64,000 nucleotides of DNA from Balneolaceae bacterium. Lineage in GTDB: Bacteria > Bacteroidota > Rhodothermia > Balneolales > Balneolaceae. Numbering within the stretch: the first letter of the stretch is position 1; each line of letters starts with the position of its first letter. The stretch lies in NCBI GenBank assembly GCA_034521495.1, contig JAXHMK010000009.1, positions 1-64,000 of the forward strand. Direction: 5' to 3'. Both the position numbers and the translations under genes were made by a program. The notes under the pieces were generated by a model that was not told where the DNA came from, did no database searches, and worked only from the letters and a program-made list of their open reading frames with translations. Positions 7,385 through 10,700 of the stretch are shown piece after piece.

Positions 7385-7801
7385 TCAGCCTCTGCTGGTG
7401 ATCTCTATAACTCCGTTCCTTCCCTCATGCCCATACAACATAGTGGCTTTCGATAATTTGATCACACGAACAGCCTTGACATTTTGCATATTTAGCATCG
7501 TATAAATATTTGAAAAACTTCTGCCGGCTCGAACACCATCAATTACAAATAAAGGACGCGTATCTGATTGCAGGAAAGTAGATGATGAGCCGCGAATGGA
7601 GATCGTTGCCGCACGCCCCGATCCCTGAACTCTCACGCCACTCAGCCGGCGCAGGTAGATATCGAGTCCAAGATTAGGATTGTCAACCATAATTTCGGTT
7701 CCGGCTTGCTGAGAGTTGTTGGAAGAATATGAACCAGTACTGGCACAGCCTGTAAAGAGAAGCAAAACTGTAATGGAAAGGAGAGGGATGAAGTATTTCA
7801 T
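7385..7801 (-). CDS. Lipoprotein consisting of a TonB plug-like domain
   Basis: The product has 138 residues. Residues 1-19 are a lipoprotein signal ending at lipobox Cys19 (LLLFTGC). The rest matches the plug domain of SusC/RagA-type TonB-dependent receptors: LDIYLRRLSGVRVQGSGRAA, TISIRGSSSTFLQSDTRPLF, VIDGVRAGRSFSNIYTMLN and ending in KATMLYGHEGRNGVIEITSRG. No beta barrel follows: a stop codon comes directly after the plug. Such stand-alone plug lipoproteins are seen in Bacteroidota-type genomes, but their role is not established. It is probably anchored in the envelope. No receptor or SusD partner is encoded nearby. Confidence 0.8.
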   Translation of the reverse strand: MKYFIPLLSITVLLLFTGCASTGSYSSNNSQQAGTEIMVDNPNLGLDIYLRRLSGVRVQGSGRAATISIRGSSSTFLQSDTRPLFVIDGVRAGRSFSNIYTMLNMQNVKAVRVIKLSKATMLYGHEGRNGVIEITSRG

Positions 7802-7919: not shown

Positions 7920-8156
7920 TCAAGTAATTCTCACCTCTTCGTCCAATTCAATAGATTGAACTGATTTGTGCTCTGCAAGTGAGAGAATTTTTGAGCCTTT
8001 CAACTCAGCCGAAAGAATATTGTCCATCAACTTATTGGCTTGTTCAAGTTTTAGATCATCTGCATTCGTTCCCTCTTTAGTTACGATAAGTACTCTGTAC
8101 GATTTTTCAGGATACTTGCGAATAGCATTTTCAAGATCGGTTTGAATATTTTTCAT
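7920..8156 (-). CDS. Stand-alone subtilase propeptide (I9)-like small protein
   Basis: This 78-residue protein lies 68 bases downstream of the subtilisin-like protease and on the same strand, so the two are probably one operon. It has no signal peptide. The pattern YRVLIVTKEG, then ILSAELKGSKILSLAEHKSV and QSIELDEEVRIT follows the strand-helix-strand layout of the inhibitor I9/subtilase propeptide fold. It also resembles the protease's own N-terminal region (ISSIELDDEEHSKLA, VLAVEEDTEVHI). I infer that it is a detached intramolecular-chaperone or inhibitor domain acting on the neighbouring protease. This is a fold-level similarity by eye and could be wrong. Confidence 0.65.
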   Translation of the reverse strand: MKNIQTDLENAIRKYPEKSYRVLIVTKEGTNADDLKLEQANKLMDNILSAELKGSKILSLAEHKSVQSIELDEEVRIT

Positions 8157-8224
8157 ATCAATTTGGATTACAGAAAAGTAAGGTGCCCATAGGTAACGGG
8201 CACCTTACCGATTTATGTTTATAG

Positions 8225-9625
8225 CTACGCTGTTGCCAGGTCACAGTTTATCAAACCATAACCGTGTGGTTCATCGAATCCGGCAGCACCAAGATCTGAT
8301 GCTGATGCCGTAATTCTGCGTTCAACATTTATGGGGCTGATACCCGGATACTTCTCATAAAGAAGTGCAGCAAGACCGGCTACGTGAGGACATGCCATAC
8401 TGGTTCCGGTTTTTTCGTCATAACCATTATTCAACACAGTGGAATTGACGTCAACTCCGGGAGCTACTACGGTAACCCGATTCCACTCGGAATGATCTCC
8501 GTCACGTGATGAAAAGCTGGCTATGTTACTGCTTTGATTAACAGCACCAACTGCAATCGGACTTGCATTAGAGTTCGATCTCTGGTAAGCATTAGCCGGT
8601 GAACCTACCCAGGGGAAGGAACTGCTGTTTCCTGAGTTTCCGGCAGATGTAACAACAGTTACACCAGCTTCCTGGCACTTTCTAACCGCATTGGCATAGG
8701 CCGTACTTGGGGCTGTTGAACTACCCAGACTCATACTCGCAACCTGTATATCATTTTGAATACACCAGTCCATGCCTGCAATAACCCATGATGAGTACCC
8801 GCTGCCAGAGTCTGAAAGCACTTTTACGGCATAGAGACTGCACAAAGGGGCAACTCCAACCACGCCGATAAAATTGTTCCTGGCACCGATGATTCCTGCA
8901 CAGTGCGTACCGTGGCTGTGCCCGTCGTCGTAACTGGATACACCACTTACAAAAGATGCACCGCCCGATATGGTAAGGTCGTTATGATTCGCGATTCCCG
9001 TATCAAGAACGGCAACTTTCACGCCACTTCCCTTGTAGCCCCTGTTCCACGCTGCGGGTGCATTGATCATGCTGATATTCCAGGGTACCGGTTGCTTTCG
9101 CAATACGGGTGGTCTCCAGGGGAATGGTTTTCTTGGAATGGGTCTTAGAATTGGGTTTCGGGGTACTGGTAAAACCGGTCCATATCCTCCACTTCCAGAA
9201 GTTTGTTCTCTTGTTCCCATTTGAAGCATCGATGAGAAAAGGTCCATCATGGCATTTCGGTAACCTTCGTCGTACGAACCATTTGTGTCGTAACCGGCTT
9301 CGCTGATGGAGCTGTTGAATCGTTCCAGTTGCTCTTCTTCTGCCGAGAGCTCAAGAATATGAACTTCTGTATCCTCCTCAACAGCTAATACTTCTTTCTT
9401 TTTTGCCAGTTTGGAATGTTCCTCATCGTCCAGTTCAATAGAACTGATTCCAAGTTTTGAAAAGTGAAGGACATCATCTTTTTTAGGGGTGGAGTCGGTC
9501 TCCATAAACGAGACGCCCTCTTTGGTTTTGCTTTTTGTTACACCAAGTATACTGCTTGCTTTAGACGAATCTATGTCCTGATCCGCATATGTAACCAAGT
9601 ATCTCTTTCTTTTTTTCTGATTCAT
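8225..9625 (-). CDS. S8 subtilisin-like serine protease, no signal peptide
   Basis: This 466-residue protein has the complete subtilase catalytic set: Asp208 in VAVLDTGI, His238 in HSHGTHCAG, oxyanion Asn330 in TSAGNSG and Ser409 in GTSMACPHVAG. Residues 1-92 look like an I9-type propeptide, and residues 145-180 form a Pro/Arg-rich linker. There is no signal peptide, lipobox or T9SS tail, so it is either intracellular or exported by an unusual route. The start is supported by AGGAG placed 8-9 bases before the ATG. The small I9-like protein follows downstream. The domain order (propeptide, linker, peptidase) suggests autoprocessing. The substrate is unknown. Confidence 0.9.
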   Translation of the reverse strand: MNQKKRKRYLVTYADQDIDSSKASSILGVTKSKTKEGVSFMETDSTPKKDDVLHFSKLGISSIELDDEEHSKLAKKKEVLAVEEDTEVHILELSAEEEQLERFNSSISEAGYDTNGSYDEGYRNAMMDLFSSMLQMGTREQTSGSGGYGPVLPVPRNPILRPIPRKPFPWRPPVLRKQPVPWNISMINAPAAWNRGYKGSGVKVAVLDTGIANHNDLTISGGASFVSGVSSYDDGHSHGTHCAGIIGARNNFIGVVGVAPLCSLYAVKVLSDSGSGYSSWVIAGMDWCIQNDIQVASMSLGSSTAPSTAYANAVRKCQEAGVTVVTSAGNSGNSSSFPWVGSPANAYQRSNSNASPIAVGAVNQSSNIASFSSRDGDHSEWNRVTVVAPGVDVNSTVLNNGYDEKTGTSMACPHVAGLAALLYEKYPGISPINVERRITASASDLGAAGFDEPHGYGLINCDLATA

Positions 9626-9962: not shown

Positions 9963-10700
9963 TTACTTTCGTTTGTCTTTTACATAGATCACTTTGGAAT
10001 GTCCATCCCCAACTTTTCTCTCTTCCATTTCAAAAAGTCCGATGGCATCTATCAATTCTCCAAGTTTTTTATACCCGTAATTTCGGGGATCAAAACCCGG
10101 AGACTGTTTTGCAATATAACTGCCTACCGGTGCCAGGTGCGCCCATCCGCTCTCATCGGAAGATGCTTCGATGGCATTTCTTACCAGGTTAACAAGCTTT
10201 GTATCTTGTTTTAAATCTTTTGCGGGACGTTTTTTTCTCTGCTGTTTATCATCATCCTCTTCTGCTAATACCTCCGTGTAAATAAATTTATCGCAGGCAG
10301 CAACGAATGGATCGGGTGTTTTCTTTTCACCGAATCCATAGACTACAAGGCCGGCCTCCCGAATACGAGCTGCAAGTTTGGTAAAATCGCTGTCGCTGGA
10401 AACAAGGCAAAATCCATCGAATTTGTCTGTATAAAGCAAGTCCATTGCATCAATGATCAGGGCACTGTCTGTTGCATTTTTACCCCGGGTATATCCAAAT
10501 TGCTGTATGGGCTGAATAGAGTGTTCAAGTAAAACCTCTTTCCATCCCCGAAGCTGGGGCTGCGTCCAGTCTCCATAAATTCGTTTTACATTTGCAGTTC
10601 CGTATTTGGCAACTTCTGCAAGTAAATTTTCTGTGATAGATGGCTGGGCGTTATCGGCATCGATCAGAATGGCAAGTTTTTGTGTAGAACCTGTATCCAT
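9963..10700 (-). CDS. NYN (PIN-like) domain protein with LOTUS/OST-HTH domain
   Basis: The protein has 245 residues. Residues about 8-150 are a NYN domain of the LabA/DUF88 type. The acidic residues of the PIN-like active site are visible in LAILIDADNAQPS, ATDSALIIDAMDLLY and LVSSDSDFTKLAARI. After a Lys-rich linker (QQRKKRPAKDLKQD), residues about 165-240 resemble an OST-HTH/LOTUS domain (WAHLAPVGSYIAKQSPGFDP, YGYKKLGELIDAIGLFEM), a fold that binds RNA such as G-rich sequences. Together they suggest a cytoplasmic RNA-directed nuclease or regulator. The biological target is not known. It stands alone. Confidence 0.88.
   Translation of the reverse strand: MDTGSTQKLAILIDADNAQPSITENLLAEVAKYGTANVKRIYGDWTQPQLRGWKEVLLEHSIQPIQQFGYTRGKNATDSALIIDAMDLLYTDKFDGFCLVSSDSDFTKLAARIREAGLVVYGFGEKKTPDPFVAACDKFIYTEVLAEEDDDKQQRKKRPAKDLKQDTKLVNLVRNAIEASSDESGWAHLAPVGSYIAKQSPGFDPRNYGYKKLGELIDAIGLFEMEERKVGDGHSKVIYVKDKRK

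Follow-up and report, generated by a model that had tools for sequence, protein, structure and literature searches.

Gene content of the locus

The window analyzed here is the whole stretch of 64,000 nucleotides from a Balneolaceae bacterium (assembly GCA_034521495.1, contig JAXHMK010000009.1, positions 1 to 64,000), and the genes of interest lie on its minus strand. Read in the direction of transcription, the row consists of a NYN-LOTUS gene, a subtilase gene, a 68-bp gap containing a hairpin, a gene for a protein of 78 aa and a Plug gene. A first-pass annotation had singled out the subtilase and the small gene as a protease with a separate propeptide-like partner; the coordinates, strand, protein lengths (466 and 78 aa) and spacing that it gave all proved correct. 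The features are as follows.

9963-10700, minus strand: NYN-LOTUS gene (Pfam), first of the row in transcription order
8225-9625, minus strand: S8 subtilase, 466 aa, no signal peptide (Pfam S8; hydropathy)
9350-9625, minus strand: I9-like N-domain of the protease, aa 1-92 (approximately 7-92), ending VEED-TEVHIL (hhalign)
9098-9349, minus strand: linker of the protease, aa 93-176 (alignment; dN)
8177-8209, minus strand: hairpin with T-rich tail, terminator- or attenuator-like (scan; 14 pairs; z -5.77)
7920-8156, minus strand: stand-alone I9-fold protein, 78 aa, no signal peptide (AF2 model, profile comparison)
7385-7801, minus strand: Plug-domain lipoprotein-like gene, 138 aa (Pfam Plug, 9.7e-12)

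The last gene of the row encodes the Plug domain of a TonB receptor alone, with no barrel. Homologues of it adjoin the small gene in genome G015 and also in G020 (two copies) and G010, two genomes in which the small gene occurs without the protease.

A subtilase with an I9-like N-terminal domain

The 466-aa protein covers the Pfam Peptidase_S8 profile in full (1-288 of 288, E 3.1e-54). Residues 2-272 of mature subtilisin align with its aa 178-464, and the catalytic domain spans about aa 177-466. The complete catalytic set described earlier was found again: the protein has the D, H, N and S motifs, and these do not vary among four homologues. With a full domain and the catalytic Asp, His and Ser, the protein belongs to S8. 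A structural model of the protease, built from four close homologues, was useless (pLDDT 31).

The protease was also said to possess its own I9-like N-terminal domain, and profile comparison agrees: residues 7-90 align with the I9 profile and score 21.8, a value that none of 300 shuffles attained, albeit by a narrow margin (best shuffle 19.1). The Pfam I9 score of this domain lies under the cut-off (18.6 of 21.2 bits; E 0.003 over aa 62-90), and a PDB sequence search with the domain returned no I9 chain. Because the N-domain ends in VEED-TEVHIL, cleavage after L92 is plausible by analogy. A linker of about 84 residues separates the N-domain from the catalytic domain and is the fastest-evolving part of the protease, with a dN of 0.187 between G000 and G015 versus 0.047 for the N-domain and 0.058 for the catalytic part; within this otherwise fast-evolving region, a SYxxGYxxAxxDxFS stretch is conserved. 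The homologue in G121 (403 aa) has no linker. The protein is not an ISP by the usual mark of that group, a propeptide of 16-20 residues with LIPY/F: an I9-like domain of about 90 aa and then the linker precede the catalytic part, and neither LIPY nor LIPF occurs in the 466-aa translation.

Several other identities and modes of spread were considered and rejected. PADLOC and NCBIfam searches for a defence system yielded a general subtilase match alone. The partner of IetS is an AAA ATPase; resemblance of the protease to IetS (E 3.9e-8) is confined to the catalytic domain, and the flanks in the window are the NYN-LOTUS and Plug genes, so that IetAS was set aside. As to plasmids, the small protein had no plasmid match. 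As to phages, 63 phage records match the protease at below 60% identity with none covering 80% of it, the best 20 of the 63 cover its catalytic part alone, and no viral-contig relative was found.

The 78-aa protein has an I9-like fold

Structure prediction of the small protein, modeled from a nine-row alignment, gave the I9 fold that the pairing had presupposed (AF2 pLDDT 87, pTM 0.76). When the model was compared with known structures by VIA-align, ranks 1-20 were all subtilase propeptides or proforms, with Z scores of 9.1 for 3afg (ProN-Tk-SP), 6.0 for 1spb_P and about 6 for the Tk-subtilisin propeptide, while the inhibitor POIA1 (1v5i_B) stood at rank 22 (Z 5.4). Unrelated ferredoxin-like folds reach a Z of about 5 from rank 21 down, and fold alone is therefore no proof of function. 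Foldseek likewise placed subtilase prodomains or proforms in rows 1-20, the best at E 0.017 and none below 0.001. The best viral match to the model was an uncharacterised Orpheovirus protein of 92 residues (A0A2I2L405 in BFVD; Foldseek E 3.2e-4), perhaps a viral stand-alone I9 protein.

At the sequence level the relationship is faint in single searches and clear between profiles. The profile of the small protein scored 33.2 (hhalign, 29 columns aligned) against the I9 domains of 29 proteins from the same order, a score that none of 300 column shuffles reached (maximum 21.0); this alignment comprised 29 of 30 fetched I9 loci (L054-L083), as L078 gave none. Against the N-domain of the protease itself the score was 28.6, again beyond all 300 shuffles (maximum 18.3). 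The small protein misses the Pfam I9 gathering cut-off (13.4 vs 21.2 bits), and is therefore called I9-like here by its fold and by profile comparison, not by the Pfam rule. Of its ten homologues, six find I9 with an E value of 1 or lower (best 0.0058), and no non-I9 family is matched by more than one of the ten. In PDB sequence searches the single protein found no I9 chain, and its top matches, to formate dehydrogenase (E 0.014), were taken as chance; its profile found one I9 chain, 8c4x_B (E 0.2), ranked below three unrelated chains.

The two proteins had been linked by a shared IELD-E-V-I pattern. This motif is partly out of register between them: IELDEEVRI of the small protein (69-77) does pair with a segment of the protease, namely VEEDTEVHI (82-90), but not with the protease IELDDEE (63-69) that resembles it by eye.

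The C-terminus of the small protein is conserved. E70 and D72, which form an E-x-D motif, are invariant (10/10), the protein ends at position +6 after D72 in 11/11 (the G010 fragment included), and P4 is Val in 9/10. The free tail of the 78-aa protein is thus the six residues EEVRIT. In the propeptide of BPN', Glu69 and Asp71 are described as the helix caps (PMC6993865), and the title of 1SPB gives a prosegment of 77 residues, from which it follows that BPN' and the small protein alike carry a six-residue tail. In POIA1 and yeast YIB2, inhibitory strength is reported to be set by six-residue tails (PMC10580911).

Predicted location, expression and selection

Hydropathy, taken as the maximum of an 11-aa window over the first 45 aa, bears out the earlier view that the protease has no export signal: the maxima were 0.55-1.15 in the five pair proteases and 1.95-3.29 in control subtilases with I9 from the same order (n = 27 of 30 I9 loci; L075 was set aside and two had no long enough ORF). 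Six stand-alone small proteins also have no hydrophobic N-terminus (maxima 0.53-1.15). From these N-termini we infer a cytoplasmic location for the pair.

All four gaps between the two genes within the genus (4/4) contain a hairpin with a T-rich tail (z -3.6 to -5.8). The stems are identical in G016 and G019 and otherwise differ, giving three stem sequences in the genus; the G121 gap has no hairpin (z -0.26). A terminator-like hairpin between the genes makes equal co-expression unsure and weakens a simple operon picture. It may set the level of the inhibitor below that of the protease, or it may end the protease message.

The small gene is real and under purifying selection, as both close pairs give it a dN/dS of about 0.14 (0.197/1.364 in G000-G015 and 0.017/0.125 in G016-G019). 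This ratio, together with homologues in 11 genomes, rules out a chance ORF. Its rate relative to the protease varies, with a higher dN in G000-G015 (0.197 against 0.076) and a lower one in G016-G019 (0.017 against 0.030).

Distribution of the pair and of its parts

The N-domain of the protease was found in 4/98 relatives, plus G121 from another genus of the family; named records with it include Rhodohalobacter sulfatireducens WB101. Among 395 genomes drawn from the phylum there was no further case bar one chance match, and the match in G385 (E 0.0015) was dropped since reading the locus revealed no such gene. The small gene lies directly downstream in 5/5 proteases with readable downstream DNA (G000, G015, G016, G019 and G121), at distances of 68-85 bp. 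A sixth protease of the type, in L045, is outside this count as its stretch ends inside the gene. The small protein itself occurs in 11 of 128 genomes searched in the order: beside the protease in 5, alone in 2 (G020 and G010, the latter cut by the contig end) and fused to an amidohydrolase in 4. A weak match in G030 (E 0.0097) was dropped, the locus being without such a gene. The anticipated conservation of the pair hence holds from one side only: the protease was never seen without the small gene, across two genera, but 6/11 genomes with the small protein are without the protease. The pair is rare and was seen in one bacterial family.

Subtilases are encoded elsewhere in the six protease-less genomes (11 matches). 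Seven have readable N-termini, all signal-like (maxima 2.51-3.44), so no other signal-less subtilase target was seen among the 7 judged of 11 matches. The remaining four were unjudged for a signal: contig ends truncate L126 and L130, in L127 the neighbouring gene was taken, and L134 is without the catalytic front.

Detached I9 proteins are not unique to the pair within the family; the signal-less pair is. Stand-alone I9 proteins with lipoprotein-like N-termini occur in G014 and G013 (123 and 129 aa), and G119 encodes a 190-aa stand-alone protein with two I9 matches (genes at L115 3093-3464, L116 2-391 and L117 124-696). No subtilase was recognised beside these genes in the fetched DNA. In G202, from another family of the phylum, an ORF for a 107-aa stand-alone I9-like protein with a longer tail (L052 6342-6665, E 0.0011) lies between biosynthesis genes, and no subtilase was recognised within 13 kb; this ORF was left out of the 11. 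G109 (L114 2868-3924) has an apparent frameshifted subtilase, with I9 and catalytic parts in different frames, and this candidate has the same response-regulator and hydrolase genes close by. G121 has a gene with a Hint-like C-terminus (L039 1950-3614; Pfam Hom_end_hint 1e-4, under the cut-off) whose end lies 11 bp upstream of the subtilase, so that the pair there may belong to an operon of three genes.

Fusion to a predicted exported amidohydrolase

In G002, G004, G007 and G025, the I9-like domain is fused to the C-terminal end of an amidohydrolase predicted to be exported (L018 8278-10218; L017 2225-4162; L019 7384-9324; L020 5478-6377). The four fused forms make up one clade (100/99) and stop exactly where the stand-alone proteins do. 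Orthologues of the amidohydrolase without the domain are present in seven genomes of the genus, and G019 carries an amidohydrolase of this plain kind together with the protease and the small gene, all three consecutive on a single strand. One history that would fit begins with the pair behind the amidohydrolase, goes on to loss of the protease and ends with fusion of the small gene to the enzyme in front, its free C-terminus being kept. The fused domain, being predicted to be exported, cannot meet a cytoplasmic protease.

A candidate second brake on a cytoplasmic subtilase

We consider it likely that the 78-aa protein is a dedicated stand-alone I9-type inhibitor, serving as a second brake on a self-inhibited cytoplasmic subtilase. 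The I9-like prodomain of the protease probably folds and blocks the newly made enzyme in cis. By analogy, the small protein would bind and inhibit the protease directly, occupying in trans the surface of the catalytic domain that the prodomain covers. E70 and D72 would cap two long helices of that domain, and the EEVRIT tail, with Val at P4, would lie product-like in the S4-S1 cleft. As the protease has an I9-like N-domain of its own, the partner would add a second lock to an existing one, catching those molecules that have lost their prodomain. The usual P1 residue is large, and the Thr found at P1 in the window and in G015 speaks against this reading.

The pair also lends itself to other interpretations. 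The small protein could be a free-moving I9 module acting on other proteases, self or foreign, with its adjacency to the subtilase due to shared inheritance instead of a working partnership; its stand-alone occurrence in G020 and G010, its fusion to the amidohydrolase in a single clade and its faster evolution than the protease in G000-G015 all point that way. Yet every protease with readable downstream DNA is accompanied by the small gene, even in the other genus with its 403-aa form, and the stand-alone proteins have no signal peptide, which makes foreign or extracellular targets unlikely for them; we regard this account as unlikely overall. Rather improbable, in our judgement, is that the small protein serves mainly as a trans foldase for the subtilase and not as an inhibitor. 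Mesophilic bacterial I9 propeptides are described as obligatory chaperones as well as inhibitors (PMC10580911), and conservation of the pair suits such a role, but the protease already has its own I9-like N-domain, the small protein is kept without the protease in 6/11 genomes, and a conserved free tail at +6 fits occupancy of an active site better than folding alone.

A protease that leaves the cell by an unrecognised route as an antibacterial effector, with the small protein conferring immunity, seems very improbable. In the case of emfourin, it has been proposed that protease-inhibitor operons act as effector-immunity pairs (PMC9505478), and a Hint-like gene sits directly upstream in G121; still, reading the ORFs of the fetched loci by eye revealed no delivery domain or secretion genes beside the pair, and the protease retains a prodomain of inhibitory type. 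A dedicated inhibitor of the neighbouring subtilase remains our preferred reading. More tentatively, the pair might be a bacterial cytoplasmic counterpart of the Plasmodium SUB1-ProM system whose plug, in one clade and after loss of the protease, was captured by an exported amidohydrolase with its inhibitory C-terminus intact, yielding a cell-envelope enzyme with a protease inhibitor built in.

Comparison with known systems

Bacterial protease genes adjoining inhibitor genes are known, and differ from the present pair in enzyme class or inhibitor fold. Spi and staphostatin have folds unrelated to I9; protealysin is a metalloprotease, and its inhibitor emfourin is unrelated to I9. SpeB-Spi of Streptococcus pyogenes and staphopain-staphostatin do resemble the present case in that the protease gene adjoins that of a specific inhibitor, and Spi is described as a propeptide analogue (PMC2873492), but SpeB and staphopain are cysteine proteases and the present enzyme is an S8 subtilase. 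Protealysin and emfourin of Serratia are an intracellular bacterial protease and inhibitor encoded in one operon (PMC9505478). Bacillus Isp1 and IPI (BsuPI) combine a cytoplasmic subtilase with an inhibitor protein, as proposed here (PMC3901451; PMC6220982); IPI, however, is Ig-like in fold, and the propeptide of ISPs has 16-20 residues with LIPY/F, whereas here prodomain and partner are both I9-like.

A limited search of the open-licence PMC literature, by title and abstract start, found no bacterial stand-alone I9 partner. To our knowledge, none of POIA1, yeast proteinase B inhibitor 2 and Arabidopsis SPI-1 is coded beside its protease. These three are named as the well-characterised stand-alone I9 proteins (PMC6993865), and like the 78-aa protein they are small and have a single domain of I9 fold, but they are eukaryotic, as are all the stand-alone I9 proteins that we found in print (POIA1, the yeast proteinase B inhibitor, SPI-1, TgMIC5 and SUB1-ProM; PMC6993865). 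A close parallel is SUB1-ProM of Plasmodium, described as a potent and selective inhibitor of SUB1: a stand-alone propeptide-like gene syntenic beside subtilase genes, as here, which has the capping residues and P4 Val in common with the small protein (PMC6993865). SUB1-ProM is eukaryotic and acts in the parasitophorous vacuole, whereas the present pair is bacterial and signal-less, with a full-length tail. If a bacterial protease that carries an I9-like prodomain also has a separate I9 partner, the two would make a compact natural system for asking why cells need plugs both in cis and in trans, and how a propeptide becomes an independent inhibitor; in the fused clade, the module has moved onto an unrelated enzyme with its free C-terminus in place. 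Set against the known I9 inhibitors, the device is of a familiar kind and its setting is new.
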